Shown: piece by piece, positions 1-48,090 of the stretch
Numbering within the stretch: the stretch's first letter is position 1
Layout of the letters: each line of letters opens with the position of its first letter
Assembly (NCBI RefSeq): GCF_002177135.1
Contig: NZ_MWPH01000002.1
Span: 1,178,001 to 1,242,000 of the forward strand
Direction: 5' to 3'
Length of the DNA stretch: 64,000 nucleotides
Origin: Natronolimnobius baerhuensis
GTDB lineage: Archaea; Halobacteriota; Halobacteria; Halobacteriales; Natrialbaceae
Made by a program: the position numbers and the translations under genes
The notes under the pieces: model-generated
Told to the model about the DNA's origin: nothing
Databases searched by the model: none
The model's input: the letters and a program-made list of their open reading frames with translations, nothing else

Positions 1-274
1 GAATCATATCATATCCTTCACCATATCCATCGATATAGGCATTCTCGTACTCATCTATAAACTCATCTGCGTCAGGGTCTGGTTCAGGGTCTGGGTTATG
101 TTCTAATCCTTCGACTGCATCCATCTGACCATCCTCTACACCATCCTCGAAACCGGCTATTTCAGCGTCTTCATATGAGTCATATGCCGCTACAGTGCCT
201 ATACCTGCGAAAATCACGGACGTGACCATGGCGATAGCCATGAAACACGTTGCTATTTTACGTGTATTTAACAT
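1..274 (-). CDS. Small secreted or anchored acidic protein of the provirus (C-terminus off the left edge)
   Basis: Reading leftward from the ATG at 274, the protein starts MLNTRKIATC and has one hydrophobic stretch at about residues 8-30 ending in an AAYDS-like junction, consistent with a signal peptide or N-terminal anchor. The rest that can be read (about 60 residues) is strongly acidic, with a DPEPDPD stretch, and looks extracellular. It lies 58 nt downstream of the spike-like gene in the same direction, so it is probably in the same virion or envelope operon. No family is recognised. The stop codon lies outside the window. Confidence 0.6.
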   Translation of the reverse strand, partial: MLNTRKIATCFMAIAMVTSVIFAGIGTVAAYDSYEDAEIAGFEDGVEDGQMDAVEGLEHNPDPEPDPDADEFIDEYENAYIDGYGEGYDMI

Positions 275-332
275 ACATTATTATATAGTATCTGAAAGAA
301 TAAACTTCTGTGGGCGATTAGGTTTAGAACGG

Positions 333-1898
333 CTATGGGAAGGCGACCGAAATAACCACACGTGCGGTGATAATCACCACTACGAGACCCCCACCTACGA
401 TAGCTACAGCATATGACACGCCGAAGTCATCTACTAGGTCATCCCAAAACGATTCGAAGAATCCGCTACCACCCTGTCGTTCTTCTAGTAATTCTTCGAT
501 ATTCTCGGTCTGAAGTCTTAATTCTTCGATATATTCAGACGAATCGTACTCCGAATAATTCCGTTCCTCATATTCGATGTAATCTCCGTCATCAATCTCA
601 TCGATAGTCATTTCATCGCCGGATTCAAGAACCCATTGTTCGACGTTTCCATCAGAATCTATGGCTTGAATTATAATGTCATCATCATAGTCATCAGCGG
701 CATACGTTTCGCCTTCTAACCATGCGATTATACCATCGTCAGTCGTCGTTTCTGGTGCGGCACGAGTCGTCAGAAGTCCAGATGTTTCGACTTCAGTTCC
801 ATCAGATTCAGTCACAGTGAACGTCGCTGGGGCGTCAGCAGCCGTCTGATAACCCGCAGCAGCAGCAGCGATAGCAGCGAAATCTACACCATCAGTATCA
901 TCACCGATAGTCGCCATCACAGATGGGTCAGCACATTCCATCATATCCACATCTGAACCATCATATTCGGCGTAAATATCAGACGCATAGACGGCCATTT
1001 CGTTGGCTACATCCTCTGAATCATCATATATCTGGTCGATAATACCCATCTGGTCTTCCGTATCAGACAGTGTGATAGGTTCCCCCACATTATATTCGGC
1101 CACTTCGGGGTCTAGTGCCTGAAATACGGCGTATGCGTCATCCTCTGGTGCATTCACAGACGCATCCGTAGGATTATCTGGGGCAGTCAAATCCACACTA
1201 ATATCGTGTGCGGCTATCCCCGGTGATTCCATGTTCTGCATTTCTGTCGCCATTTCAACGGTATCTCCATTCGGAAGTTGTTTCTCTTCATATACAACTT
1301 CGGTGTCGTCTGTCCAGAGAATCCGCTCGTCGGTGTTTTCATAGTCGCTATTTCCGACGATATCACCGTGTATTAGGTGGTATACTTCGTTATCCGTCCC
1401 TTCCGTCGCTAAGTCCACTTGTGCGGCACTGTGTATCTCCTCGACCTCTGAGTTCCACGAATTGATGTGGTTCTCGAGAATCAGGCTATAGTGGTCATCC
1501 ACACCATCTTCAGTGTCTGCTATCATCACAGATTCCGGGGCGTCTTCCTGAAGCGCCTGACACGTAGCATACTGCCCGTGTCCAATCGCCACTTGTTCAG
1601 CATCTGTGATTTCGTTCTCCACCCACACCATCGACTCGTCTACATTATCCTGATAGGAAAGAGCGTCACGGAACAGTTCTTCTTCCACTTCACCCGCACC
1701 CATGCCTTCCGTGTCCTCGCCCATGGACCCTATTAAATATCCACCACCACCACCTACAGCAGTACCACCTACTACAGCAGCACCTGCCACTAATGGGGCG
1801 ATAGCAGCTACAGTCTGGGTCATAATTAACATCGATACCACTAACACGACCATGACGGTCGCAAGGCTCGGGGTTTTCTTTTTAAATATTTGCAACAT
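333..1898 (-). CDS. Pleolipovirus-like spike / envelope glycoprotein candidate
   Basis: 521 aa. A hydrophobic segment at residues 13-33 ends in TVAA and looks like a signal peptide. It is followed by a glycine/alanine-rich hydrophobic stretch (about 34-57, APLVAGAAVVGG...GGGGGYLIG). A large acidic ectodomain follows with few cysteines (in QYATCQ, MMECADP). Near the C-terminus there is a short heptad-like helix (EYIEELRLQTENIEELLEER), then an amphipathic FWDDLVDDF piece and one membrane anchor (about 495-515). This order (signal, ectodomain, coiled coil, C-terminal anchor) is that of VP4-type spikes of haloarchaeal pleolipoviruses. Assignment rests on architecture plus the N-terminal composition; a secreted surface protein of another element is the alternative. 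ATG at 1898 sits 13 nt after the preceding small gene, so co-transcription is likely. Confidence 0.55.
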   Translation of the reverse strand: MLQIFKKKTPSLATVMVVLVVSMLIMTQTVAAIAPLVAGAAVVGGTAVGGGGGYLIGSMGEDTEGMGAGEVEEELFRDALSYQDNVDESMVWVENEITDAEQVAIGHGQYATCQALQEDAPESVMIADTEDGVDDHYSLILENHINSWNSEVEEIHSAAQVDLATEGTDNEVYHLIHGDIVGNSDYENTDERILWTDDTEVVYEEKQLPNGDTVEMATEMQNMESPGIAAHDISVDLTAPDNPTDASVNAPEDDAYAVFQALDPEVAEYNVGEPITLSDTEDQMGIIDQIYDDSEDVANEMAVYASDIYAEYDGSDVDMMECADPSVMATIGDDTDGVDFAAIAAAAAGYQTAADAPATFTVTESDGTEVETSGLLTTRAAPETTTDDGIIAWLEGETYAADDYDDDIIIQAIDSDGNVEQWVLESGDEMTIDEIDDGDYIEYEERNYSEYDSSEYIEELRLQTENIEELLEERQGGSGFFESFWDDLVDDFGVSYAVAIVGGGLVVVIITARVVISVAFP

Positions 1899-1911
1899 GA
1901 ATAATTACACC

Positions 1912-2106
1912 TTATGCGAATTGATTATAAACGCTGTACGCCACAGCACCAGCACCTGCGATAAACGCAAATCCGATAGCTTGTTCTGGGGTTCCTTCCG
2001 GAATTCGTGAAAGAACATCTACACCGAAATTTAGTTGGACACCAAGTGCTGCACTACCTACACCGCCGATGGCTTTTCCAGCCGTATCAAGTATATTATC
2101 ACTCAT
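1912..2106 (-). CDS. Small provirus membrane protein, 64 aa
   Basis: Starts MSDNILDTAGKAIGGVGSAA and has two hydrophobic, glycine-rich stretches (about residues 10-27 and 44-60, ending AYSVYNQFA). It is the first gene of the apparent operon that continues into the spike candidate. The start at 2106 is preferred over an in-frame ATG at 2127 because a TATA-like CTTATAAT lies about 24 nt upstream of 2106, the spacing of a leaderless haloarchaeal mRNA, and the longer form would place coding sequence inside the promoter dyad. Function unknown; a small virion membrane protein is a guess from position. Confidence 0.6.
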   Translation of the reverse strand: MSDNILDTAGKAIGGVGSAALGVQLNFGVDVLSRIPEGTPEQAIGFAFIAGAGAVAYSVYNQFA

Positions 2107-2132
2107 AATGCGTATTATACTACGCATTATAA
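2107..2132 (-). promoter_or_regulatory. Promoter with perfect inverted repeat, candidate operator of the envelope operon
   Basis: AATGCGTA (2107-2114), six bases, then TACGCATT (2121-2128) form a perfect 8-bp dyad abutting the start codon at 2106. A TATA-like element, CTTATAAT on the minus strand, overlaps its upstream arm. A dimeric regulator bound here would cover both the TATA box and the transcript start. The winged-helix protein at 4207 is a possible binder; this is inference. Confidence 0.55.
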
Positions 2133-2549
2133 GAATAAATGTTTACTGACTATTAGGGTAGGAAAACAACTCGAGTATGGAAACTTCGTGGAAACATCGA
2201 GAATGGAAAGAACGTGCGTGAAAGCGGGCTAGCGTGAATAATACGCCCCCACCGAGTAGAACTCAATATGTTCGAAACAGATTGAATATGATATGTTATC
2301 TAACTTATCACCTCCATGCCATAATAGACACTCAATCCCTAAAGGGATTGTCACGACAGGGAATCTGAACGACAGGGCCGCACCGCCCGACAGACCGCAC
2401 CGCAATTTCGATTAAGATATGAAAATCAAATCCTGCTTAGACAGGGTGGAACCCCACCTCGTGGAGACCTCCCGGGAAAGTCAATCTCGTGGAGAAGTGT
2501 TGGTAAGAGAGCTAGGACACGGAAGGCTACAGAGCTATGTCACACGGGG
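2133..2549. other. Non-coding provirus stretch with hairpin and short direct repeats
   Basis: No convincing gene. It contains a perfect 8-bp inverted repeat with a 2-nt loop at 2333-2350 (CAATCCCT/AGGGATTG), followed at once by three CGACAG copies at 2354, 2370 and 2388 (spacing 16 and 18 bp). Two CTCGTGGAGA copies follow at 2458 and 2486; CTCGTGGA recurs at 2938 and 2974 beyond the next gene. Hairpin plus short iterated motifs could be an origin, packaging or regulatory site; nothing in the sequence decides between them. Confidence 0.4.
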
Positions 2550-2900
2550 TTAGCTGTACAACATGACATCATAATCTGAACCGAAATTCGGAAACCTGTC
2601 ACTCTGAAGAAGACCCCGATGCTGCGCAAGCTTTAGATATTCAAGACGGTATCGATGGGCACACATATTCTCATCCTCATGGCCGCTGTAATACCCATAC
2701 CCACCACACGAACAAGACTTAGACACTGCTACAAACCGTTCTCTTTCAACATACTCCACAGTCCACCTCGTGTTTCCCCTATCTCTCTTTACATCAGTGT
2801 AGACTTGATGTTTGACCACTTCTTGTTCTTGTAGCTCGTGGGACTCTTCTTCCTGTTCTTTCTGTTCAGAAGTCCACTCATCTGAATAACTATCAACCAT
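2550..2900 (-). CDS. SWIM-type zinc-finger protein
   Basis: 116 aa. The N-terminal third is charged (EQEEESHELQEQE) and probably disordered or helical. Residues 61-82 carry CxC (C63, C65), a 14-residue spacer, then CxH (C80, H82), the SWIM zinc-finger pattern CxCx(n)CxH. SWIM domains bind DNA or protein partners and occur in transposases, recombination factors and stand-alone haloarchaeal proteins. The gene stands alone between two repeat-rich non-coding stretches, so it may act on them. The specific role is unknown. Confidence 0.65.
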   Translation of the reverse strand: MVDSYSDEWTSEQKEQEEESHELQEQEVVKHQVYTDVKRDRGNTRWTVEYVERERFVAVSKSCSCGGYGYYSGHEDENMCAHRYRLEYLKLAQHRGLLQSDRFPNFGSDYDVMLYS

Positions 2901-3260
2901 ACTACTAACTACGTTGTCAAATCCTATTGGCTTGTTCCTCGTGGACCCCAGACTTGCTGTGCGCTGCCCACCGCTCGTGGAAAGTCGGTCTGGCTATAGC
3001 TCCCCTGAACCCCCAGTACTGAACTAGAGCTGTTATTCACTCGTGTCTCTACCAGAGTTGAACCCCCAGTATTCTAACTGCATGAACTGAACCCCAGATG
3101 TTATTGTAGATAGCCCGGGGTTCCATATGCGGTGTCGTTCCAGAAGTCGTAGACTTTCAAAGTCTATCTCGAAGTCTGTTATTCGAAGTCTTCGGAAGTC
3201 TATGAAAGGGTGTTTCCAAAGTGTATCGAAAAATAAGGGCCTTAAAAAGTATTTCAAAAA
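2901..3260. repeat. Repeat-rich provirus stretch (TGAACCCCCAG and GAAGTCT clusters, palindrome)
   Basis: Three copies of TGAACCCC(C)AG lie at 3006, 3059 and 3088; the first two share 13 bases including a trailing TA. Next come a perfect palindrome at 3150-3166 (TAGACTTT, C, AAAGTCTA) and GAAGTC copies at 3143, 3171, 3185 and 3195. A 74-codon frame crosses this on the minus strand (3033-3257), but its peptide is dominated by the repeat sequence and has no recognisable fold, so I favour a non-coding iteron-like site. Confidence 0.4.
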
Positions 3261-3767
3261 TCACGCTGGTGCAGGAAGCCGTTTTAAATCTCTCCGAGGA
3301 ATTTCTTTGGACGGGTACTCCGTCCAGTCAGCCCAGTCAGCCTGTTCTACTTGTTCTCTCGTCGCTAAGCCGATGAACTCGATACAATCTTCCATGTGAA
3401 TAATCGCCATAAGGTAGCGGTCTGCGTGTAGTTCTCCATCCCGCATTCGGACAGGTAAGTCCGCTTCGTCGGGGAGAAGTCCCTTCGAGAACAGACGAAC
3501 TGTATCCCGTGCCTTGATTTCTATCTTGTGCTGCTGAGACTCATTTTTAAGTTCATAATCATACTCGTAGCCCTCATACTCGGACCAGTCATAGTAGTCT
3601 TCGTAAATCGGGAAAAACTCTCTTTCAGCCGCTATCTCCACCATTTTACCACGCCATGCATCTATTTCAGCCACATTATCATCCCGTTCTCCAGACCTGT
3701 CTGGGCTGTCCATTCGTTCCTTCGCTTCTTTCTCTAAATCAGCTGTGATAGGCACTCTAATTCTCAT
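3261..3767 (-). CDS. Putative PD-(D/E)XK-like protein of the provirus
   Basis: 168 aa from the ATG at 3767, chosen because GAGGTG stands 7 nt upstream as a ribosome-binding site inside the preceding gene; an ATG eight codons earlier lacks this. A Tyr/Glu-rich centre leads into D70...E83-I-K85, the spacing of a PD-(D/E)XK nuclease core (DYELKNESQQHKIEIKAR), followed by a beta-strand-like YLMAIIHMEDCIEFIGLAT segment, as in small restriction-type or Vsr-like folds. Last gene of a four-gene overlapping operon (4104 to 3261). The nuclease assignment is motif-level only; the protein could also be a DNA-binding relic of that fold. Confidence 0.5.
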   Translation of the reverse strand: MRIRVPITADLEKEAKERMDSPDRSGERDDNVAEIDAWRGKMVEIAAEREFFPIYEDYYDWSEYEGYEYDYELKNESQQHKIEIKARDTVRLFSKGLLPDEADLPVRMRDGELHADRYLMAIIHMEDCIEFIGLATREQVEQADWADWTEYPSKEIPRRDLKRLPAPA

Positions 3768-3885
3768 TTTCAACACCTCGCAGTTCATCATCAGTTAAAA
3801 TCTCTTCAGCAGGGTCTTCGCCCCAAAGGTCGATAACTTCATCCGGGTTCTTGATGCCCGAATCTGGTGATTCTGAAGCACTCAT
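3757..3885 (-). CDS. Micro-protein of the provirus early operon, 42 aa
   Basis: MSASESPDSGIKNPDEVIDL... ends DELRGVENEN. Very acidic. Its ATG overlaps the stop of the gene before it (ATGA at 3885-3882), and its last 11 nt overlap the start of the nuclease-like gene, whose ribosome-binding site lies inside it. Translational coupling along the string argues that it is a real gene although it is below usual annotation size. No family recognised. Confidence 0.6.
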   Translation of the reverse strand: MSASESPDSGIKNPDEVIDLWGEDPAEEILTDDELRGVENEN

Positions 3886-3998
3886 TCTTCTTCACCCTCG
3901 TTATCCTCATCATCATTAGAATCGTCCGAATCAGACGGCCAGACGCCTTTATCCAAGACCGCACGTCTACGACGTGCATGATACTGATACTCAGACAT
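3882..3998 (-). CDS. Micro-protein with basic N-terminus and acidic tail, 38 aa
   Basis: MSEYQYHARRRRAVLDKGVW, then an acidic DSDDSNDDEDNEGEEE-type tail. The charge split (RRRR, then Asp/Glu run) is visible directly. The start overlaps the upstream 37-aa gene by 8 nt and the stop overlaps the next start, so the three small genes form one coupled unit. No known function. Confidence 0.6.
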   Translation of the reverse strand: MSEYQYHARRRRAVLDKGVWPSDSDDSNDDEDNEGEEE

Positions 3999-4104
3999 TA
4001 GAGACCACCTCAGCATCATTTTCAGGAATCATAATCGAATCCCAGTCGCCCGAATTCTGTTCTATCGCCCGTTCTACCACAGGTTTCAGGTTTTGTTTAA
4101 CCAT
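3991..4104 (-). CDS. Micro-protein, first gene of the provirus left-going operon, 37 aa
   Basis: MVKQNLKPVVERAIEQNSGD...DAEVVSNV. A TATA-like AATATAT lies about 20 nt upstream on the minus strand, consistent with a leaderless or near-leaderless transcript beginning here. It opens the operon that continues through the 38-aa and 42-aa genes to the nuclease-like gene. Divergent from the winged-helix gene at 4207. Function unknown. Confidence 0.6.
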   Translation of the reverse strand: MVKQNLKPVVERAIEQNSGDWDSIMIPENDAEVVSNV

Positions 4105-4206
4105 GTTATAGTGAATGATATATTAGAATAAAGGTGTACCCCTAAGACGACCGTATTAGGGTGAGTTCAGAGAACACTTTTATGCGTGCACGTACTAGTA
4201 AATAAC
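4105..4206. promoter_or_regulatory. Divergent promoter region of the provirus regulator
   Basis: About 100 nt between two divergent genes. Leftward: AATATAT near 4117-4123. Rightward: CTTTTATG at about 4168-4175, roughly 30 nt before the ATG at 4207. Arrangements of this kind, a small helix-turn-helix gene facing an early operon, often hold the regulator's own operator. Confidence 0.5.
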
Positions 4207-4443
4207 ATGGAAGAAATAACACCCAGAGACGATGCATGGGACACAGCACTATACACAATCGCAAAGGAAGGTTCTATCACAAGTACCGAAATCGCACGAC
4301 AGACAGATATAAGCACGAAAACAGCAAACAGAGTCTTGAAATCGATGGAGGCAATGGGCTACGTAGAGAGAGAAACAAACCGACATCACACGTTCTATCC
4401 TTCGGATAGATTAGAATTAGTGTGTGCGTTTATGAGTGAATAG
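4207..4443 (+). CDS. Winged helix-turn-helix transcriptional regulator
   Basis: 78 aa. Residues 12-60 form a typical archaeal wHTH: LYTIAKEGSITSTEIARQTD (helices 1-2), ISTKTANRVLKSMEAMGYV (recognition helix), then a short wing (ERETNRHHTFYPSD). ATG 4207 is chosen because the TATA-like element fits a leaderless start; an in-frame ATG at 4186 lies too close to it. It faces the micro-gene operon across a shared 102-nt promoter region, so repression or autoregulation of the provirus is the likely role. Confidence 0.75.
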   Translation: MEEITPRDDAWDTALYTIAKEGSITSTEIARQTDISTKTANRVLKSMEAMGYVERETNRHHTFYPSDRLELVCAFMSE

Positions 4444-4505
4444 CCTACCTTTTGTGTTCCCCTTAGCACATCATTTATATACCACCAGTTATTTTATAGA
4501 CATGT

Positions 4506-4946
4506 ATGAGTTCGAAACAGAACTATGCTGAAAGAATAGACGAAGAAAGTAGCATCGAAACACGAGTACCAATCCGCTGTACAAATGAACACTGCAATGG
4601 ACATACACCAGAAACCATCCCAAAGTCGAAGTTAGAATACGCACACTGTCCGTCCTGTGAAGGAAACATCGATGAACAAACAGGTTCGTTATCTTGGAAA
4701 GAAAGCTATGAACACTTCCAGAAATCGCAAGACGGAAACGGAGTAGACGAGGAAAAAACACGATTTCATGGGATGGATGACGACCATGTAGAAGTCATCC
4801 ATGAAGATGAAAATAAGATAGTAATTCGAATCCGACACATGCAAATGGTCGAAAAAGCGTTTGAAAGCTACACAGTATCTCGAATAATTGAATTCGACAA
4901 CATCGATGGGACAGAAATCATACTCAAGCGAGGTGATGACGAATGA
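4506..4946 (+). CDS. Zinc-binding provirus protein, 146 aa
   Basis: Cysteines C25, C30, C48 and C51 (CTNEHC and CPSC) make a zinc ribbon-like pair of knuckles in the N-terminal third; the rest is an acidic alpha/beta region. TTTATATAC about 30 nt upstream is the promoter. Its stop overlaps the start of the next gene (ATGA). No named family is recognised; zinc ribbons of this sort in viruses often contact DNA or host protein. Confidence 0.65.
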   Translation: MSSKQNYAERIDEESSIETRVPIRCTNEHCNGHTPETIPKSKLEYAHCPSCEGNIDEQTGSLSWKESYEHFQKSQDGNGVDEEKTRFHGMDDDHVEVIHEDENKIVIRIRHMQMVEKAFESYTVSRIIEFDNIDGTEIILKRGDDE

Positions 4947-5122
4947 GGTCATACGATAAAAACGATTACCGTGGTATGGGGCTTACAGATGCTGAAATCG
5001 ACCGAATCGTAGACCAAGTAATGTCCATGTCCCGGTGTCGTGACGCACAAGGTCGATTCGACCCCGAAGAAAGTGCCGACCACCAGTTGGAGTTTGTCCC
5101 CGGAACCGACGTTGCTGAATAA
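4943..5122 (+). CDS. Small provirus protein, 59 aa
   Basis: MRSYDKNDYRGMGLTDAEID...GTDVAE. Starts at ATG 4943, overlapping the previous stop by ATGA, and ends at 5122 just before a T6 run (5128-5133). A helix (LTDAEIDRIVDQVMSMSR) is followed by an acidic tail. Unknown function; translationally coupled to the zinc-binding protein. Confidence 0.6.
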   Translation: MRSYDKNDYRGMGLTDAEIDRIVDQVMSMSRCRDAQGRFDPEESADHQLEFVPGTDVAE

Positions 5123-5220
5123 CTCTCTTTTTTCGCCCGCAGTTGTTCTCCAACTTCAAAATAGACACATAGACGTGTCTATTCAGTCCATATACAGACC
5201 TTCACCCAATGGTGAAGGGT
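5123..5220 (+). terminator. Terminator region with T-run and two hairpins between convergent genes
   Basis: A T6 run at 5128-5133 follows the stop at 5122 directly. Next are two perfect hairpins: AATAGACAC/GTGTCTATT (5160-5168 with 5175-5183) and CTTCACC/GGTGAAG (5200-5206 with 5211-5217). The convergent ribbon-helix-helix gene ends at 5272, so the hairpins can serve both strands. Confidence 0.5.
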
Positions 5221-5271
5221 TTCCATCAGAATAACTTGAAAAACGTATTAGAAAGGAACCTCGAAGAGTTA

Positions 5272-6240
5272 CTACAACTGACGTTCGATTGAGTTTTCGA
5301 ATTGGCTATGATATGCATCAACCTGCCCAATATATCCTAATAGATGGTCTCCAAACGAAGCGTATTCACCATTGTATACATCTACGGTGAGTAGGTCTCC
5401 AGACTGACTAATTACTTTATCCATGACCTTCAACCCTCTCTTCTGTTCTAAGTTATCTCCATTTCTGACGGTCTTATGCACGTCTAACGCTAACATCAGC
5501 ATGTGTTCGGCAGCTTGTTCATCAGATACATGATACACTGTGTTAGACCACTCATCATCGATATCAGCGTAATCTGCTAGAGTCGAATAATTGCGTCTGT
5601 ATGCCTTATCCGACGCCGTATCATCTAATTTTGCGAAATTATTCTCAATATCGGTTTCGACCAAATCATCCAACCATTCACCATGATTGTTGAATGGTGA
5701 ATCAATCATATGACGGCGAATTATGGTGTTAGCGATATCGTTTGCGCTCCCCTTCGCATACCCTACTTCATCCATGATGTAGTTTCGAACCTCTTTCTTC
5801 GTCCATGCGTTTTGGGACTCTCCTCGGAGTGCTGCGTAGACCACTTCGTCACGGTCGATACCTTGGACTCCTTTAATTAGGCTGATATCATACTCGGCAG
5901 TGTCGATTGCTTCTCCTTCGTTAGCTAGTTGGAGAAGCTCTTCTAGTTCTTCTTCATCAACTTCAGAACCACCCACCCCTTGAACAGAAAAAGATGCTTG
6001 CGAAGATGCCTCTTCATTTTCTTCCAGCATTTCTTTGATTTCGCTTATCTCTGTTTTTATCGACTCTTGGCGGTTGAAATCACTAATTAAGCGGTCTACT
6101 ACCCTACCTTGGTCATAGCTACTTCCATACCATTCTTCAGCTTTATCTTCGATAAATTCTGCACTTTCAGCCTTCATGTTTAGCGTTTTTCTGTCTTTAC
6201 CCTTCTTTTCCTTACTTACTTCATTACTATCTTTATTCAT
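5272..6240 (-). CDS. Ribbon-helix-helix-like DNA-binding protein, possible replication or partition factor
   Basis: 322 aa. After a lysine-rich start, residues 18-57 read as a ribbon-helix-helix: beta strand KTLNMKA, helix ESAEFIEDKAEEWY, helix DQGRVVDRLISDF. A coiled-coil stretch follows (ESIKTEISEIKEMLEENEEA), then a long alpha-helical C-terminal domain without a recognised family. It is the largest cytosolic protein of the element and its start abuts a 400-nt AT-rich stretch with 23-bp direct repeats. RHH plus coiled coil next to iterated DNA is the usual layout of partition or origin-binding factors; that role is inferred. Confidence 0.5.
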   Translation of the reverse strand: MNKDSNEVSKEKKGKDRKTLNMKAESAEFIEDKAEEWYGSSYDQGRVVDRLISDFNRQESIKTEISEIKEMLEENEEASSQASFSVQGVGGSEVDEEELEELLQLANEGEAIDTAEYDISLIKGVQGIDRDEVVYAALRGESQNAWTKKEVRNYIMDEVGYAKGSANDIANTIIRRHMIDSPFNNHGEWLDDLVETDIENNFAKLDDTASDKAYRRNYSTLADYADIDDEWSNTVYHVSDEQAAEHMLMLALDVHKTVRNGDNLEQKRGLKVMDKVISQSGDLLTVDVYNGEYASFGDHLLGYIGQVDAYHSQFENSIERQL

Positions 6241-6647
6241 ACTACATATAACTAATATAACTAGTACCCTATATATTTTACTCCAATTTGATGCAAATTA
6301 TATAATAATTGTTAATTTATTAACTATAACTAACTACTACAACAACTACAACTACTGCTATAACTACTACTTCACCTTTCTCCAACAGTTACTAATCGCA
6401 TTACGTAGTTAGATTGGTCAATTCTAACTAAGCTTTTCCACTCTTTATACTCTCTTCGTGAAGCGTATTTTTTCGTTCAGGGGTGGGGTGAACAAGCAGT
6501 CTTCAACTATGCTTTATCAAAAATAATATTTCTATGTTCTTTTTCGGAGACCTTGTTTTTTCGTTCAGGGGTGGGGTGGTTCTAGACCCCCCAATTTGGC
6601 ATTAAATCTGTTCTTGAATAGATTACGCTGTCCCCGTCTGGTGGTTA
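6241..6647. repeat. AT-rich intergenic region with 23-bp direct repeats, candidate origin or partition site
   Basis: No gene. From 6241 to about 6420 the sequence is nearly all A/T plus ACTACAACA-like triplet runs (6336-6372). Two identical 23-bp direct repeats follow at 6468-6490 and 6556-6578, each a T-run followed by TCGTTCAGGGGTGGGGTG, 88 bp apart. AT-rich DNA plus G-rich iterated sequence beside an RHH gene suggests a replication origin or centromere-like site of the element. Confidence 0.45.
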
Positions 6648-6818
6648 TCAGTGATGTTCCGTATAGAGCGGTTCGAAATGCAGTCTAACAAGCTGTCCGC
6701 ACTCTGGACAGACTAGGTGTATCAGGCTGTTTTCTCCTGCTTTTGGCTTCATAGCGCCATCGCAGTAGCTATCTAAGCAGTCTTGTTCGACCTCGTTCCA
6801 GTCCCGGGTCTCGCACAT
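6648..6818 (-). CDS. Zinc-finger micro-protein, 56 aa
   Basis: From the ATG at 6818: MCETRDWNEVEQDCLDSYCD...LVCPECGQLVRLHFEPLYTEHH. CPEC plus upstream cysteines (C14, C19) make a plausible zinc site. The frame is open to an ATG at 6908, but a TATA-like GTATATCC at about 6845-6852 fits a leaderless start at 6818, and the longer form would leave 10 nt to the divergent gene at 6919. The motif TGTAGGTAACA (6823-6833) lies just upstream and recurs before the gene at 8332. Confidence 0.55.
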   Translation of the reverse strand: MCETRDWNEVEQDCLDSYCDGAMKPKAGENSLIHLVCPECGQLVRLHFEPLYTEHH

Positions 6819-6918
6819 GATGTGTAGGTAACAATCTGAAACAGGATATACTGTCGAATATATTTCTCCAATTCTTTGTTGCACTAAACCATTATTCTTG
6901 TAGCACATATTACATAAT

Positions 6919-7101
6919 ATGTCTTATAGAGCAGATATTGAGGTTAAGGTTGAACAGATACTGAACACGCACTATATCGACCACCATGGGAACGAATATG
7001 AGTGCAAAAAGTGCGGGAAGAGAGTGTATTGCGGGGATACACGAGCTTCACGCCAAGAGTTCTATGAGCATCAAGCGAAGCACAATATGAACCTCATTTA
7101 G
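6919..7101 (+). CDS. C2H2-type zinc-finger protein, 60 aa
   Basis: MSYRADIEVKVEQILNTHY, then CKKCGKRVYCGDTRASRQEF with EHQAKH: a CxxC...HxxxH finger as in many small haloarchaeal and haloviral proteins, usually DNA-binding. It ends 8 nt before the stop of the convergent membrane protein. Divergent from the 56-aa zinc protein. The target is unknown. Confidence 0.65.
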   Translation: MSYRADIEVKVEQILNTHYIDHHGNEYECKKCGKRVYCGDTRASRQEFYEHQAKHNMNLI

Positions 7102-7108
7102 ATGGTTT

Positions 7109-8020
7109 TCAAAGGATACCGTATTCATAAGCAACATGAATGAAGTAAAGAGCGTAGAGAATCAGCGAATAGTATATGTAAAGCTTGGGTGAGGCAATGT
7201 CTGTAAATGGAGTTTGTCCGTATCGTCCGTACAGAAACCGGAGTGAGACAATGAGATAGTTAACGGCGATTGCGAGGAGTGTTCCTTCTACTATGATAGA
7301 TGTTATCTCGGGGTTTGTCACTCTTGAAGATAGGAGATAAAATCCTACGAAACTGAAAGAGAATATTGTGAGAAGACCTAATGCGGCAAAAGAGGTTCCA
7401 ATCAAACTTAGAACACGGTCTCCCCAACTGACTTCGGAAGGTGTTTGACGGTGAACTGTTGGAATGTCACGTACTTCTTCCGGCCATTCTGATTTTGGAA
7501 GTAACGACGATGATAGAGATGTCTTGGAAATGTAAAGGGTGATTCGTCCCAGTATCGTTCCTCTGTGTTCCAGATGCTGTTTATAAGAGTATATGCAAAT
7601 CAACAGGAAGAAATCACGGAACATCATTTCGTATAAAATGACAAAACCAAGGCAAAAGACGACCGCATATAAGAGACTCAGTGTGGATGGTCGAGGATTA
7701 ACGATTGGTACATGGGCTTGAGTAGCACTTCCAAGTACGAGTACCAAATAGAGTAGTCCGAAAGCGGTTGATATGACCAATAGAGGCGTTGTACTTCGAA
7801 GAAGGTCTTTTGAATAGGGATTCAGGGACGCCATTCTACGAACGAGTGTTATAATTAGTAGAAGAAATGCCGAAAAGATAGCAACAGGATAGAGTGGAGT
7901 ACTTACATTGGGAACGAAAAGTAGGGCGGTTGCAAGAAGTGCAGCGAACGTAATTTCGTATCCAATGGCTGATTCTTTGTCGATTTCAATGTGGTTGTCG
8001 AACGAGAGATTAGTCATCAA
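7109..8020 (-). CDS. Polytopic membrane protein of unknown function
   Basis: 303 aa with about seven hydrophobic segments, roughly at residues 24-42, 46-62, 77-97, 113-146 (two merged), 216-240, 249-268 and 281-299. A cytosolic or external loop (about 148-205) is charged and Ser/Pro-rich. No transporter signature or catalytic motif seen. In the accessory part of the provirus beside the GNAT gene, so it may be a moron gene acting on the host membrane; that is a guess. Confidence 0.6.
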   Translation of the reverse strand: MMTNLSFDNHIEIDKESAIGYEITFAALLATALLFVPNVSTPLYPVAIFSAFLLLIITLVRRMASLNPYSKDLLRSTTPLLVISTAFGLLYLVLVLGSATQAHVPIVNPRPSTLSLLYAVVFCLGFVILYEMMFRDFFLLICIYSYKQHLEHRGTILGRITLYISKTSLSSSLLPKSEWPEEVRDIPTVHRQTPSEVSWGDRVLSLIGTSFAALGLLTIFSFSFVGFYLLSSRVTNPEITSIIVEGTLLAIAVNYLIVSLRFLYGRYGQTPFTDIASPKLYIYYSLILYALYFIHVAYEYGIL

Positions 8021-8095
8021 GCAAGTAATTGAATCACTGAAGTATAAAATCAGCTAAGAAATTTCCATAGGCTCTATTTGAGTTTAGTTAACTAT

Positions 8096-8332
8096 TCAGC
8101 CCACCACATCAACATCATCATCAGGAAGTTTACTAATAGAAATATTATCATCAGAGTCAGAAGTGTTCTCTAAGAGTAGCGAAATGGTGGTGCGTGGCTC
8201 TTCTCCGCCTTTAACTGTAGATTCAATTATTTGTGTGACTTTCCATTCATTATCGTTGTAGTTGATTGTATCTCCAACTTCGATATCTTGTGCATCTTTT
8301 CTTGCCATATCGAAATGTGAATCCGCAGTCAC
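8096..8332 (-). CDS. Small acidic protein, GTG or ATG start
   Basis: 78 aa if begun at GTG 8332 (TADSHFDMARKD...), 70 aa from ATG 8308 (MARKDAQDIEVGDTINYNDN). The core VGDTINYNDNEWKVTQIIES resembles a short beta-barrel. The C-terminus is an Asp-rich tail (DSDDNISISKLPDDDVDVVG). TGTAGGTAACA at 8334-8344 directly precedes the GTG. Function unknown. Confidence 0.55.
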   Translation of the reverse strand: MTADSHFDMARKDAQDIEVGDTINYNDNEWKVTQIIESTVKGGEEPRTTISLLLENTSDSDDNISISKLPDDDVDVVG

Positions 8333-8387
8333 TTGTAGGTAACACTGGCTGTAAGAGAATTATTAGATATAATAGATATCGTCTTTA

Positions 8388-9398
8388 TCAACCGAATGCC
8401 ATTGGTATAAGACTATAAACCTCCTGAGCAGGTCCCGACCTTGTATCGAGATGGTCAATGGATTCAAGCACCGCACGACCTCCAGTGGTTAAGTCATCAG
8501 CGAAGTAGTGGTCTGATTCACATACCTTCTCAGACCATTCTGAGACAAGTGTAGCTGCGATACCTTCTTCCCTGTGCTCATTACGTACGTATAGTTGTGA
8601 CAGTATTGGCCCTTTGTCGTGGTCTTCCCACGTAAGGTATCCTGCCATCTCCTCATCTTGAATATAACAGAGGGCGTGCTGGTATTCATGCTTGTACGTG
8701 CTGACAACATCATCTGACCATCTGGGAATTTGTGAAGCGGTGAGCACAGCGTCTTGAACCCGGGTTGAGCCGTGAGGTGGGTGATGAATGGCGAATGCCT
8801 CATCCTTTCCTATCTCAACAATTGACTCTGAAGTGGAGTCGCCACCAAGAAGCCAATCTGCGGAGAAGAGTTTATTGAACGATGCTTTTCTGCCTTCTCG
8901 GTATCGTCCGTAAATTTTGTGGCAGTCTTTGCACGAGACGAGCCGGAATTCCTGCTCACCAAAACTTTCGCTAAGTTCAGAGTTTTCGCTCTCTACCAGA
9001 ACCTTGTTTGAGGAGATACGCTCGCATCTACAGTCGTCTGGTTCAATGTCTGGTTCTTGGTTCATTTCCCCAAAAGCATTCATGAAATAAGATGACCCTG
9101 TTATATCTTCCACGTTTGAGATATATTCTGATTTTAGTTGCGAGATGCGCTCGCCATCAGGCATTGGAAAGAAAACAGAGTATAGTTCGTTTTTGCGGTA
9201 CTGGGCAAATGGTTCTGATGATAGTTTATGCTCATCAAATATCTCCCACGAACCCTCATTCAAGTGTAATAAAATACACCTCTTATCGCTAACAATGATA
9301 CTACCGATTCGTTTCTTATTGAACTGTTGTTGGTGTTCCACCGGTACCTCGGCAATATGGGTTTCATCTTTTCTCAGCACACTTTCGGTGAAGGACAT
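8388..9398 (-). CDS. Protein with GNAT-like acetyltransferase C-terminus and cysteine-rich centre
   Basis: 336 aa from ATG 9398; GAGTTTATATTC about 27 nt upstream fits a leaderless start. The middle has DCRC and CKDC pairs, a likely zinc knuckle. Residues 268-290 (QLYVRNEHREEGIAATLVSE) match the acetyl-CoA-binding motif of GNAT enzymes (V-R-x3-R-x2-G-I-A). The substrate is not evident; the N-terminal 120 residues are unassigned. It lies 114 nt beyond the integrase gene in the same direction, so it is accessory cargo of the element. Confidence 0.6.
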   Translation of the reverse strand: MSFTESVLRKDETHIAEVPVEHQQQFNKKRIGSIIVSDKRCILLHLNEGSWEIFDEHKLSSEPFAQYRKNELYSVFFPMPDGERISQLKSEYISNVEDITGSSYFMNAFGEMNQEPDIEPDDCRCERISSNKVLVESENSELSESFGEQEFRLVSCKDCHKIYGRYREGRKASFNKLFSADWLLGGDSTSESIVEIGKDEAFAIHHPPHGSTRVQDAVLTASQIPRWSDDVVSTYKHEYQHALCYIQDEEMAGYLTWEDHDKGPILSQLYVRNEHREEGIAATLVSEWSEKVCESDHYFADDLTTGGRAVLESIDHLDTRSGPAQEVYSLIPMAFG

Positions 9399-9512
9399 CG
9401 TATATACACGTGAAGTGATAGAATATAAACTCAATGCTGTCGATGAATCTCTTCTATATATAATAGAGAAGTGAAGTTATCTCTCTCAGAGCATCTCAGC
9501 AGAATATGTCTG

Positions 9513-10505
9513 TCAGATATTATCTAAGTAATCTCTCCGTTGTTCCATCTTTTCAGTCTGTGAGCGGCGGTCGTAGTGCTTTTCCAGAACATCTTCGCTC
9601 ACGTCCGCTCGGTCTGAGACCATTTTCTCTGGCATGTCCTTTCGCAAGAAGTGTGTGATGGAACCACGACGGACGGCGTGCGGACTTACGCTGTCGTCGC
9701 ACTTGTGGGATGTTTTGCCGTCTGATTGGCTATTGCACTCTTCGGTCTCGCACTCGTCACCTCTGAAACTCGGACACGTGAGAGTGTAGCACCAACGCCG
9801 CATTGTGTTCCTGTGAACCCGCCCTTGCTTACTGGAGAAGAGTGGTTCCCTCCCGTGTTGGTCGGTGTTGGTAATTCTATGATGTTCAAGGTAGTCGTCT
9901 ATGATAGCACAGGTCTCGTCTGAGAGTGCTACTGGTCGTTCTCCGGATGGTCCGTTTTTCAGATTAGTTCCGTCCCGTTCTCGGAAATGGATGAATTGGT
10001 CGTCACTATCGTAGTCGTCCACGTCTAGGGAACGGAGGGCACCCACACGGGCGCTTGTTCTCCATGCAAGAAGGAACCAGACGTGTTCGACTGTGGCGTA
10101 GTGATAGCGGTCCAGTGTTTCTAGAATCGCTCTGGCGTTGTCCTCAGAGATTTTTCGGCTATTCACTTCGTCTGACCGCTTCATCTTCACGCTCGGTACT
10201 GATTCACATAACTCTGAATCCACGATTCCAAGCCGTCCAAGATAGCGAAGGAACACACGGAGGGTGTCTAACTGCCCTTTCAGGGCAGATTTCGAGAGGT
10301 CGCCGTCTTTCCGCCTCCAATTTTTGTATCGCTCTACGTCAAGCGGTTTGAGTCCACTGAGGTCTTCTATGTTATTCTGGCCACACCATCGAACGAAGTG
10401 GTTTAGCCGATATTTGTGAGTTTTCAGGGTTGATTCTCTGACTTCGCCTTTTCGTGATTCGAGATACATGCTCTGGCATTCTTCTGGGTCCGGGTTTCGG
10501 CTCAT
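9513..10505 (-). CDS. Tyrosine recombinase / integrase of the provirus
   Basis: 330 aa. N-terminal SAM-like core-binding domain (about 10-110), then the catalytic domain: R153 (TSARVGALRS), box HAVRR (H276, R279), and nucleophile Y311 (EKHYDRR). A cysteine-rich insert (C239, C244, C252, C257, H267, C269) precedes the HxxR box and could bind zinc, as in other haloarchaeal integrases. The frame stays open upstream to 10793, but that part translates tRNA-like attachment DNA, so ATG 10505 (MSRNPDPEE) is taken. It catalyses integration and excision at a tRNA 3' end; the candidate attR lies 109 nt upstream of its start. Confidence 0.9.
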   Translation of the reverse strand: MSRNPDPEECQSMYLESRKGEVRESTLKTHKYRLNHFVRWCGQNNIEDLSGLKPLDVERYKNWRRKDGDLSKSALKGQLDTLRVFLRYLGRLGIVDSELCESVPSVKMKRSDEVNSRKISEDNARAILETLDRYHYATVEHVWFLLAWRTSARVGALRSLDVDDYDSDDQFIHFRERDGTNLKNGPSGERPVALSDETCAIIDDYLEHHRITNTDQHGREPLFSSKQGRVHRNTMRRWCYTLTCPSFRGDECETEECNSQSDGKTSHKCDDSVSPHAVRRGSITHFLRKDMPEKMVSDRADVSEDVLEKHYDRRSQTEKMEQRRDYLDNI

Positions 10506-10584
10506 TGTGAAACTCCGGAATCGCCAATTGGGTCCGAGGTCGGTGGCGAGCAGGCCCGGAGGGGCTGCGAGGTAAACTGAGGTT

Positions 10585-10601
10585 CTGAAACTTTGTTTCA
10601 G
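10585..10601. repeat. Short perfect hairpin between integrase and attR
   Basis: CTGAAAC, TTT, GTTTCAG: a 7-bp stem with a 3-nt loop, flanked on both sides by GGTTCT copies. It may be an arm-type binding site for the integrase or an excisionase, or a structural element of att. No further support. Confidence 0.35.
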
Positions 10602-10613
10602 GTTCTCAGGTGT

Positions 10614-10635
10614 GGTTCGAACCCGCCCGAGCCCA
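10614..10635 (+). other. Candidate attR: displaced tRNA 3' end at the right boundary of the provirus
   Basis: On the plus strand this is the 3' part of a tRNA: T-loop TTCGAAC, T-stem half CCGCC, acceptor half CGAGCCC and discriminator A, without the body of the tRNA. Base composition changes from provirus to host across this point, and the integrase gene is the last provirus gene. The expected reading is that the element entered the 3' end of a tRNA that begins GGGCTCG, which should lie intact at the left junction outside the window. Confidence 0.6.
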
Positions 10636-10768
10636 CTATTGCTGGCGCGAACAAATTCGTGAGCGCCAGCACTGTGATGCGAGGGCGGGTCGAACCAGAC
10701 CAGTCGCAGCGGCCGAACGAAGTGAGGCCGACCGTCTGGGCGAGGTTCGAACCCGCTCGATCCCACCA
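10636..10768 (+). repeat. tRNA-tail unit behind attR: hairpin A, inverted T arm, loop B, direct tRNA 3' copy
   Basis: Hairpin A is GCTGGCGC, loop GAACAAATTCGTGA, GCGCCAGC (10641-10670), a perfect 8-bp stem. An inverted T arm follows (GGCGGGTCGAACC, about 10684-10696), then CGGCC, loop GAACGAAGTGA, GGCCG (10710-10730), then a direct tRNA 3' copy with TTCGAAC and CGATCCCA (10744-10764). The inverted and direct arms can pair over 12 of 13 positions. It has the same order of parts as the units after tRNA-Phe, tRNA-His and tRNA-Lys. Confidence 0.65.
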
Positions 10769-11142: not shown

Positions 11143-11589
11143 TTAGTGCTTGAGCCGGGCGACGTTCTCACGGATGGAACTGAAGAACCCATCGTCGGCG
11201 TCGGCCATGAGGGCAGCGTGCAGCGTCGAGTTCTCGGGTTCGTCTTTGATGACGATCCGGAGGTACGGCTCGAGTTGTTCGAACGCGTCGGCGAGGACGA
11301 CGGTGTGGTTATCCTCGTCGTGGTCGACGACGCCTGCATCGGCCAGTTTCGGGACGTGGCACTGGACCGACGAGACGTAGACGCTCTTGTACTCGTTTTT
11401 CTCGACGTCATCTGGATCCACGTCATGCTCCCAGCCAGCGACGCGTTCGGCGAGCGACGAGAGTTCGATTGGGTCTTCGCGGCCACGAAGCGCATAGAGG
11501 AGGTACCGCCGCCGACGATTGGCGAGCAACTCGAGGATCGTGTCAGCTGACAGTTCCTGGTCTGTCTGACTCGAGGTAAGGGCTTCCAT
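11143..11589 (-). CDS. DUF7344-type winged-helix protein
   Basis: 148 aa. Residues 15-95 (ILELLANRRRRYLLYALRGR...IELSSLAERVAGWE... YVSSVQCHVPKLADAGVVDH) have the layout of the haloarchaeal DUF7344 winged-helix family: two helices, an HVPKLADAGVV recognition helix and a short wing. The C-terminal part is helical. Proteins of this family are presumed transcriptional regulators; the target here is unknown. It stands alone between the provirus boundary and tRNA-Phe. Confidence 0.75.
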   Translation of the reverse strand: MEALTSSQTDQELSADTILELLANRRRRYLLYALRGREDPIELSSLAERVAGWEHDVDPDDVEKNEYKSVYVSSVQCHVPKLADAGVVDHDEDNHTVVLADAFEQLEPYLRIVIKDEPENSTLHAALMADADDGFFSSIRENVARLKH

Positions 11590-11811: not shown

Positions 11812-11885
11812 GCCGCCTTAGCTCAGACTGGGAGAGCACTCGACTGAAGATCGAGCTGTCCCCGGTTCAAATCCGGGAGGCGGCA
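11812..11885 (+). tRNA. tRNA-Phe (anticodon GAA)
   Basis: 74 nt. Acceptor GCCGCCT pairs with AGGCGGC plus discriminator A; the anticodon arm CTCGA-CTGAAGA-TCGAG gives GAA; the T arm is CCCGG-TTCAAAT-CCGGG. No encoded CCA and no intron. It is followed at once by two tRNA-tail units. Confidence 0.97.
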
Positions 11886-12119
11886 TACTTTTCCGCGAGG
11901 CAATTCGTCGAGCAGAAGGTATCCAACCGACCGGTTTGAACCCTGGAAGTCACGCGCAACGAGTGTAGCGAGTGAGCATGTCTTCCTCCGGTTCAAATCC
12001 GGGAGGCGGCATACTTTTCCGCGAGGCAATTCGCGAGCCGCAGGTATGCATTCTGACCGGATTTGAAGGAGAGGACGCCGAGCGTCAGCGAGGCGTTCGC
12101 GTGGTTCAAATCCGGGGCA
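11886..12119 (+). repeat. Two tandem tRNA-tail units behind tRNA-Phe
   Basis: Unit 1 (11886-12011): hairpin A with CGAGGCAATTCG core; inverted T arm CCGGTTTGAACC plus CTGGAAG (11931-11949); loop B AACGAGTGTAGCGAGTGA; then CTTCC and a direct copy of the tRNA 3' end through AGGCGGCA. Unit 2 (12012-12119): hairpin A repeats TACTTTTCCGCGAGGCAATT nearly unchanged; inverted arm CCGGATTTGAA; an inner stem ACGCC/GGCGT; direct arm TTCAAATCCGGGGCA, more degraded. GGAAG and CTTCC pair around loop B, and the inverted and direct T arms pair outside them. Units shorten and decay with distance from the tRNA. Confidence 0.7.
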
Positions 12120-16938: not shown

Positions 16939-17057
16939 GTCCGGGTGCGAGAATCGAACCGAAGGAAGACGATCACCTCACTTCGTTCGGTGCTGCGACT
17001 TCCAGGGTTCGATTCTCTGACGACTCCTGCGGCTCACGAATTTGTTCGCCGCAGGAA
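16939..17057 (-). repeat. tRNA-tail unit behind tRNA-His
   Basis: Read on the minus strand after the tRNA: hairpin A CCTGCGGC, loop GAACAAATTCGTGA, GCCGCAGG (17055-17026), a perfect stem; inverted T arm GAGAATCGAACC plus CTGGAAG (17017-16998); loop B CACC-GAACGAAGTGA-GGTG (16992-16974); then CTTCC and a direct tRNA-His 3' copy GGTTCGATTCTCGCACCCGG (ending 16939). Inverted and direct T arms pair perfectly over 12 bp, and GGAAG/CTTCC pair inside. Confidence 0.75.
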
Positions 17058-17130
17058 GTCCGGGTGCGAGAATCGAACCCGCGTCTCAGCCTCCACAAGG
17101 CTGAAGGATAACCACTACCCCAACCCGGAC
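17058..17130 (-). tRNA. tRNA-His (anticodon GTG)
   Basis: 73 nt including the extra 5' G (G-1) typical of tRNA-His, encoded here and opposed by a 3' C. Acceptor TCCGGGT/ACCCGGA; anticodon arm CAGCC-TTGTGGA-GGCTG; T arm GCGGG-TTCGATT-CTCGC. No CCA, no intron. One tRNA-tail unit follows at once. Confidence 0.96.
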
Positions 17131-47516: not shown

Positions 47517-47590
<74 letters not shown>

Positions 47591-47973
47591 CTTTCCTGTC
47601 GCGAACAAATTCGTGAGCAACAGGTAACGGAACCGGCGGGATTTGAATGCAGGGAGGTCGCGCGCAACGGAGTGAGCACGTCCGACTGTGTGTTCAAATC
47701 GCGCCCGGCCCGCTTTTGCGACGAACAATTTCGTGAGGAGCAAAGCGGCCAAAGCGATTTGAAGTAGACGAGTCGCAGCCAGCGAGGGATCTTCGATCCC
47801 TCGAGCAGTCGGCGCTCTGCGCCGACGACCGCGCAACGAAGTGAGCAGGAACGTCTCGGCGTAGTTCATAATCGCGCCCGGCCCGCACAATGAAGTGAGC
47901 AGGAACGCCTCGACGTCATTCATACTTGCGCCCGGCCCGCTTTTGCGACGAACAATTTCACGAGGACCACAAC
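47591..47973 (+). repeat. Series of tRNA-tail units behind tRNA-Lys (two full, one partial, one extra hairpin A)
   Basis: Unit 1 (47591-47712): hairpin A CCTGTCGC...GCAACAGG around GAACAAATTCGTGA; inverted arm GGCGGGATTTGAA; loop B AACGGAGTGA; direct arm TTCAAATCGCGCCCGGCCCG. Unit 2 (47713-47885): hairpin A with GAACAATTTCGTGA on a CTTTTGC/GCAAAG stem; inverted arm GCGATTTGAA; two inserted perfect hairpins (47783-47803 and 47808-47826); loop B AACGAAGTGA; decayed direct arm ending CGCCCGGCCCG. Unit 3 (47886-47939) keeps only ATGAAGTGAGCAGGAACG and a direct arm; a last hairpin A relic is at 47940-47973. Confidence 0.7.
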
Positions 47974-48090
47974 TGCCAGAGCCATCGGTACCGCTCGGTA
48001 CGGTATCACTCGAGGACACCTACATTTCATCGCCACTCGAGCAAAAAATTCAATAGATCGTATTGGTGATCTTACGAAGTGATTGGATAA

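Follow-up and report, generated by a model that had tools for sequence, protein, structure and literature searches.

The hairpin at positions 17026-17055 of the window (minus strand) is the first, tRNA-proximal module of an ordered array that lies behind tRNA genes. By the window we mean the whole stretch of 64,000 nucleotides from Natronolimnobius baerhuensis that was analyzed. We read 42 tRNA neighborhoods, and the arrays have the form (A-hA-A'-hB)n-A, in which A is a 22-nt copy of the 3' end of the adjacent tRNA (from G53 to the end), hA is the hairpin in question, A' is an inverted copy of that tRNA's T-loop, and hB is a second hairpin between A' and the next A. The initial hairpin finding is correct as an observation and is larger than it was described to be. 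We interpret hA, with slightly less than even confidence, as a module of a haloarchaeal tRNA-anchored DNA hairpin array that is made and remodeled by recombination and is related to att sites.

Hairpin hA and its association with tRNA 3' ends

The loop GAACAAATTCGTGA occurs in three exact copies in the window, at 10649-10662 (plus strand), 17034-17047 (minus strand), and 47603-47616 (plus strand); the chance expectation for any 14-mer is approximately 0.0005. Each copy is held by its own stem: CCTGCGGC/GCCGCAGG behind tRNA-His (17026-17055, minus strand), GCTGGCGC/GCGCCAGC, 9 bp in all, in a displaced tRNA-Val array (10641-10670, plus strand), and CCTGTCGC/GCAACAGG, interrupted by a single C·A mismatch, behind tRNA-Lys (47595-47624, plus strand). 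A one-mismatch variant, GAACAATTTCGTGA, forms the second hA loop of the tRNA-Lys array (47723-47736, plus strand), and the two mismatches in its stem, GCGAC/GGAGC, constitute an additional tandem G·A. The variant GAGGCAATTCG is found at 11897 and again at 12023. The preliminary description had reported the three exact loops with these stems and the variants at 47723 and 11897, and all of them proved to be present; the copy at 47723 is also stemmed, and the variant at 11897 recurs. That description had further suggested that CGAA and TTCG pair inside the loop to give a bulged stem. This pairing is not conserved, and we reject it because many loop variants, such as GAACAATACCGTGA, are unable to form it.

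The tRNA-His(gtg) gene occupies 17057-17130 on the minus strand, and repeat A1 consists of its final 22 nt (17058-17079). On the same strand, hA is followed by a His-specific A', GAATCGAACC, at 17006-17015, by module hB at 16961-17005, which contains the hairpin CTGGAAGTCGCAGCACC-GAACGAAGTGA-GGTGATCGTCTTCC, and by A2 at 16939-16960, a direct 22-nt repeat that matches the tRNA-His 3' end perfectly. Three other arrays in the window, all on the plus strand, are organized in the same way. Behind tRNA-Phe(gaa) (11812-11885, with A1 at 11864-11885) lie hA at 11886-11932, with the variant loop GAGGCAATTCGTCGA at 11897-11911, A' at 11933-11942, hB at 11943-11989, and a perfect A2 at 11990-12011. A second tRNA-Phe unit follows, with its loop at 12023-12036, A' at about 12059-12067, and an hB GA loop at 12080-12091, and terminates in a decayed A near 12103. 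Shortly upstream of tRNA-Phe, the opposite strand encodes a DUF7344 protein (11143-11589). Behind tRNA-Lys(ttt) (47517-47591, with A1 at 47569-47590), hA is followed by A' (GATTTGAATG) at 47640-47649, hB at 47650-47690, a perfect A2 at 47691-47712, and decayed A copies at 47864-47885 and 47918-47939. No other array in the window is as long as this one (47640-47990); its four A copies are progressively more decayed, and its second hB contains long extra palindromes. In the displaced tRNA-Val array, an A copy identical to the 3' end of tRNA-Val(tac) at 10614-10635 precedes hA, A' (GGGTCGAACC) at 10687-10696, hB at 10697-10743 with its GA loop at 10715-10725, and an A copy with two mismatches at 10744-10765.

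A genome-wide search anchored on the loop, which the preliminary description had proposed, gave 13 matches in 3.91 Mb with at most one mismatch, compared with none for the reversed control pattern. Twelve are immediately 3' to a tRNA end or a tRNA 3'-end copy, and each has its own flanking stem, mostly of 6-9 bp. Wide occurrence of the loop away from tRNAs without flanking complementarity had been named as what would speak against a selected structure; only the thirteenth match (L006) has neither a tRNA nearby nor a flanking stem.

The repeats track the tRNA beside which they lie. Among 219 units from many haloarchaea, A2 agrees with its own tRNA at 22.0 of 26 positions and with that of a random other unit at 16.1. 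The edges of A1-A2 identity are sharp: 0.30 at position -2, 0.81 at position -1 (G53), 0.79-1.00 at positions 0-20, although identity at positions 0-8 is largely set by the search pattern, and no more than 0.48 from position 21. A' is only about 10 nt long, yet it follows the T-loop bases of its own tRNA, with R4 agreeing in 204 of 218 units, an upper estimate given that extraction favored good A' matches. Proximal A copies are closer to the tRNA sequence than distal ones (41 vs 6, p = 2e-7). Ordinary units measure approximately 110-130 bp, with no gene or cargo between the A copies. An A copy is present within 400 nt of 27 of 42 tRNAs in the genome of the window (G000) and of 31 of 44 in genome G001, leaving about a third of tRNAs without a unit.

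This association bears upon the possibility that the hairpins are a REP/BIME-like, non-autonomous palindromic mobile element that a HUH transposase carried as single-stranded DNA and that settled behind tRNAs, an origin that we consider very unlikely. Bacterial BIMEs and REPs (PMC2817692, PMC3733652) are, as here, palindromes of alternating orientation in short intergenic arrays, and the strand-specific structure of our hairpins would fit such an origin. However, the arrays differ in being bound to tRNA 3' ends, in their tRNA-specific sequence, and in their variable stems. The GA hairpins are not dispersed intergenic repeats of over 100 copies; of the five in the window, four belong to tRNA arrays, and the remaining one does not exceed the background of permuted loops. 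Furthermore, the GTAG/CGTC tag beside the palindrome is not a regular feature, and HUH enzymes would not be expected to produce 22-nt target copies.

Stem covariation and the level at which pairing is maintained

Counting compensatory stem changes, another check that had been put forward, gave a clear result. In a set of 43 haloarchaeal hairpins with a 6-nt inner loop, from which six motif matches belonging to other structures were excluded, 95.1% of the cells in the proposed stem are paired, and double-sided changes occupy 102 cells, compared with 31 after shuffling. The covariation score is 0.617, compared with 0.234 for shuffled stems and at most 0.163 for slid structures. When a stem was not required, the flanks of 161 loops were still 70% Watson-Crick, compared with 39% when the arms were re-dealt (maximum of 43% in 1000 shuffles). 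In the loop, the constant sequence reads C-GA-[A/G]C ... G[T/C]-GA-G, which places on the tRNA-sense strand two G·A pairs with an inner pair closing them. The inner closing pair is A-T in 25 of the 43 hairpins, G-C in 18, and a wobble in none. Among 218 hA modules, the loop mismatch is of the GA type in 95, TC in five, AA in one, and AG, CA, or CT in none. We also considered a kink-turn or K-loop of the kind bound by L7Ae. There is no 3-nt bulge, and the pair beside the G·A pairs is never broken (A-U in 25 and G-C in 18 of 43); because this adjoining pair covaries, we rejected that reading.

Pairing that is maintained in RNA may be expected to tolerate G·U, and the tRNA stems in the same genomes provide a calibration. 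In the array stems, G·T and A·C occur 14 and 16 times, respectively (9 and 6 in hA, 5 and 10 in hB), whereas in tRNA stems from the same DNA the counts are 100 and 4 (35 and 2 in acceptor stems, 65 and 2 in T stems). The two ratios differ with a Fisher p of 2e-9, a comparison to be read with the caveats that the G·U pairs of tRNAs may be under selection in their own right and that cells are not independent events. There is likewise no G·T excess across the whole A1-A' palindrome. Because these fast-changing stems lack a G·U excess, their pairing looks, on this sequence comparison, to be maintained at the DNA level, as in a DNA palindrome. The strand polarity of the G·A pairs would also be compatible with a single-stranded structure, whether DNA or RNA, on the tRNA-sense strand.

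The main rival to a DNA array is a role at the transcript level, in which hA and the A'-hB-A2 hairpin would act in the 3' trailer of the pre-tRNA by aiding termination, RNase Z processing, or tRNA folding, with A' as a possible switch whose partner is A1 of the tRNA itself in one state and A2 in the other. The hairpins always lie on the tRNA-sense strand, and sense RNA folds better than antisense in 171 of 218 whole units, which an RNA role would also predict. The His unit has two mutually exclusive folds (z = -4.4), and in Haloferax volcanii transcription can be terminated by hairpins and T stretches (PMC7237163). Against this role stand the wobble ratio described above, the third of tRNAs that have no unit, the turnover of modules between congeners, and a T-run of 4 within the first 14 nt behind only 39 of 196 tRNAs. 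An Rfam search of the window and four array loci gave no match beyond the three tRNAs. As for a bacterial-type intrinsic terminator, no T-run follows the three hairpins, and the T-rich stretch is instead 5' of hA. On balance, we regard a trailer RNA as fairly unlikely.

The preliminary description had called the constant loop on changing stems the signature of a selected RNA or single-stranded DNA structure. What stands is the maintained pairing at tRNA 3' ends, with strong covariation and near absence elsewhere; what does not is a stand-alone RNA hairpin, since hA is one of two modules in a mosaic of tRNA copies and its stems show no G·U excess.

Integrases and the turnover of array units

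The window carries a link between the arrays and tRNA-targeting integration. Positions 1-10636 are the right part of a 24-kb element (G000:C2:1164976-1188637) at tRNA-Val(tac). The complete tRNA-Val gene lies 24 kb upstream of the tail copy at 10614, outside the window, and the array follows the copy, which is the attR-like right junction of the element. A tyrosine recombinase (integrase) of 330 aa, PF00589/PF02899, is encoded at 9513-10505 on the minus strand, and an hB type-iv-like hairpin, GAGGTTCTGAAACTTTGTTTCAGGTTCTC, lies between the integrase gene and the att core (10579-10607, plus strand). Of the longer ORFs of this element that were tested, most gave no hit in Pfam. Genome G342 encodes a 90% identical integrase, accompanied by the same att hairpin. 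A second element of the genome, 4.9 kb in length and located at tRNA-Pro(tgg) (G000:C3:57956-62940), has the same layout: its integrase, which belongs to the same family, is located near the right end, and the hairpin array of the tRNA is displaced to the far side.

The att hairpin GAGGTTCTGAAACTTTGTTTCAGGTTCTC shares its frame with a common hB type, GAGGTTCTG...CAGGTTCTC, which is present at 57 sites in 22 of 41 relatives and gave 0 control matches. All 30 of the fully read frame sites lie between A' and A, and one adjoins an integrase gene; the inner stem of this type varies and still pairs. More broadly, integrase upstream regions contain a recognizable tRNA core in only 23 of 70 cases, with a strong inverted repeat beside the core in about half (mean stem of 6.1, compared with 4.4 when shuffled). 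Since hB-type hairpins occur at both arrays and att cores, hB is common to the two, although hB could have been captured by elements from arrays and not the reverse. Neither of the two autonomous elements of the genome has hA-A' at the end next to its tRNA; a unit is thus not just the two ends of an element that collapsed.

Comparison of G000 with its one congener, G001, shows that units turn over. In the tRNA-His hairpin, CCTGCGG in G000 corresponds to CCTTCGG in the congener, with the partner changed to compensate, and hB behind the same tRNA is wholly replaced. The order of units at Leu-TAA is permuted, and an extra hB-A-hA-A' block distinguishes the two genomes at Leu-TAG and Arg-CCT. The tRNA-Phe of G001 has two identical tandem units. 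At tRNA-Gln and Leu-CAA, G001 has a unit (102 and 112 bp, respectively, each with a perfect tRNA-tail copy) that is missing from G000, where homologous flanks define a clean empty site. Because tRNA-Gln units are found in other families, loss in G000 is likelier than gain in G001. The tRNA-Leu(cag) unit (L084 and L166) has ordinary stems and no tandem G·A loop, and it is nearly unchanged between the two congeners while other arrays turn over.

Unit losses fall exactly at A×A or A'×A', and such clean losses would be equally expected from homologous recombination between A copies. They also accord with the arrays being a passive product of palindrome-prone DNA, in which template switching and recombination between tRNA 3'-end copies would continually produce and correct quasi-palindromes of no function, and in which tandem G·A loops would persist because they give very stable single-strand hairpins. 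The alternating inverted copies and the perfect Watson-Crick stems free of wobble would fit that origin, as would rare analogous inverted copies beside terminators in Holophagaceae and Butyricicoccus. Nevertheless, we consider it unlikely: the arrays are near-universal in one order and near-absent from the rest of the phylum, hB modules are conserved with 0 control matches, and the 22-nt repeats have sharp, constant edges. Moreover, A' comprises the T-loop only, and the acceptor part upstream of it is barely better matched to its own tRNA than to other tRNAs (p = 0.013), whereas fold-back copying should include the acceptor; we rejected fold-back copying of the whole tRNA tail on these grounds. 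Target duplication of a CRISPR-like or casposon-like kind was also considered and set aside. Such a process would automatically account for A copies specific to each tRNA, but hA and hB do not move together between tRNAs: near-identical modules (85% or more) behind different tRNAs form 133 pairs for hB and 6 for hA.

Returning to the recombination-made DNA array, we infer both its enzyme and its function. Recombination at the tRNA 3' end would make and remodel the arrays as DNA, in the manner of att-site-like cassettes, with the T-loop/acceptor sequence of the tRNA as the exchange core and hA and hB as flanking DNA hairpins. The likeliest candidate enzymes would be tRNA-targeting tyrosine integrases like the one in the window, which has an hB-like hairpin flanking its own att core. 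The perfect stems could arise if the hairpin is kept as a DNA palindrome, through hairpin-templated correction or through selection for single-strand folding of the sense strand, and RNA pairing would not be a required cause of their perfection.

Distribution, known systems, and significance

We followed the distribution of the arrays with a pattern of T-loop, inverted T-loop, and T-loop at set distances (DR-IR-DR). Of 41 relatives, 37 contain it, with as many as 27 instances in a genome, and the control gave no match. In a phylum sample of 295 genomes, all 14 members of the family and 36 of 39 others of the order contain it (50 of 53 order-wide), compared with 14 of 242 genomes outside the order, mostly as single matches and including one CRISPR. 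Among 80 matches listed from a scan of 84,980 prokaryote genomes, 75 are from haloarchaea or haloarchaea-like unplaced archaeal MAGs, three from Woesearchaeota, and two from bacteria. One woesearchaeal genome has three units at different tRNAs. The woesearchaeal (DPANN) loci L356, L357, L358, L361, and L363 have A-spacer-A'-hB-A at tRNAs, with their own hB sequence (GAACTTCCG...). Behind tRNA-Pro, a Holophagaceae locus (L246) has an inverted tRNA 3'-end copy of approximately 22 nt just behind the terminator hairpin, and a Butyricicoccus locus (L175) has an inverted copy behind a hairpin in tandem units. Virus contigs gave three matches, all in contigs rich in their own tRNA genes, and the arrays are therefore not virus-borne there.

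Several known systems share features with the arrays. The tRNA att repeats of archaeal integrative elements with SNJ2/pNOB8/XerA-like tyrosine recombinases (PMC8371274, PMC3119063) likewise include a direct tRNA 3'-end copy, and the integrase in the window and the hB-like hairpin beside its att core are further points in common. The arrays contain the exact tRNA 3'-end copies of an att site as sharply bounded 22-nt direct repeats, but an integrase or cargo lies between copies only in displaced arrays (such as the one at 10614 in the window) and not in ordinary units. They are also unlike att repeats in that copies are approximately 110-130 bp apart, in that their ordered tandem units contain inverted T-loops and hairpins of two classes, and in that they lie behind most tRNAs of a genome. 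The E. coli tyrT tandem repeats (rtT RNA) form a single locus of units of approximately 178 bp, each beginning with the tRNA 3' end. Those units resemble ours in being tandem and led by a tRNA 3' end, but they have no inverted T-loop, and the arrays have no Rfam match. Integron attC sites conserve structure while their stem sequence varies, and they combine strand-specific folding with cassette-like shuffling. The arrays have structural conservation, strand-specific folding, and shuffling in common with attC but lack ORF cassettes, and their core, GTTCRANTC (GTTCRAA), with C as the fourth base, departs from the attC boxes GTTRRRY and RYYYAAC. Unlike CRISPR arrays, with unique spacers and identical repeats, their spacers carry the conserved A' and the hairpins.

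These likenesses allow a bolder proposal, which we advance tentatively and regard as rather doubtful: the arrays may be an undescribed, integron-like archaeal cassette system in which tRNA 3' ends serve as the recombination core for short, structured, gene-less DNA cassettes. Recognition would depend on the folded sense strand of the cassettes, with its tandem G·A hairpins, and exchange would take place both inside a tRNA locus and from one locus to another; the system would be ancestral to Halobacteriales and present in some Woesearchaeota. Our searches of the open-access literature yielded no earlier description of the arrays, only partial tRNAs of proviral origin (PMC3119063, PMC7230728).

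If the array stems are indeed paired as DNA, they show that stem covariation alone is not proof of RNA and that the ratio of G·T to A·C, calibrated on neighboring tRNAs, separates DNA from RNA. If our reading of the arrays as recombination-made DNA is true, they would also be a naturally occurring collection of covarying DNA hairpins, with tandem G·A pairs under high-salt conditions, and a test system for the interplay of integrases, palindromes, and tRNA genes. It would also explain many partial tRNA copies that have been ascribed singly to proviruses, and it would mean that most haloarchaeal tRNA genes bear a fast-evolving DNA structure derived from their own tail.
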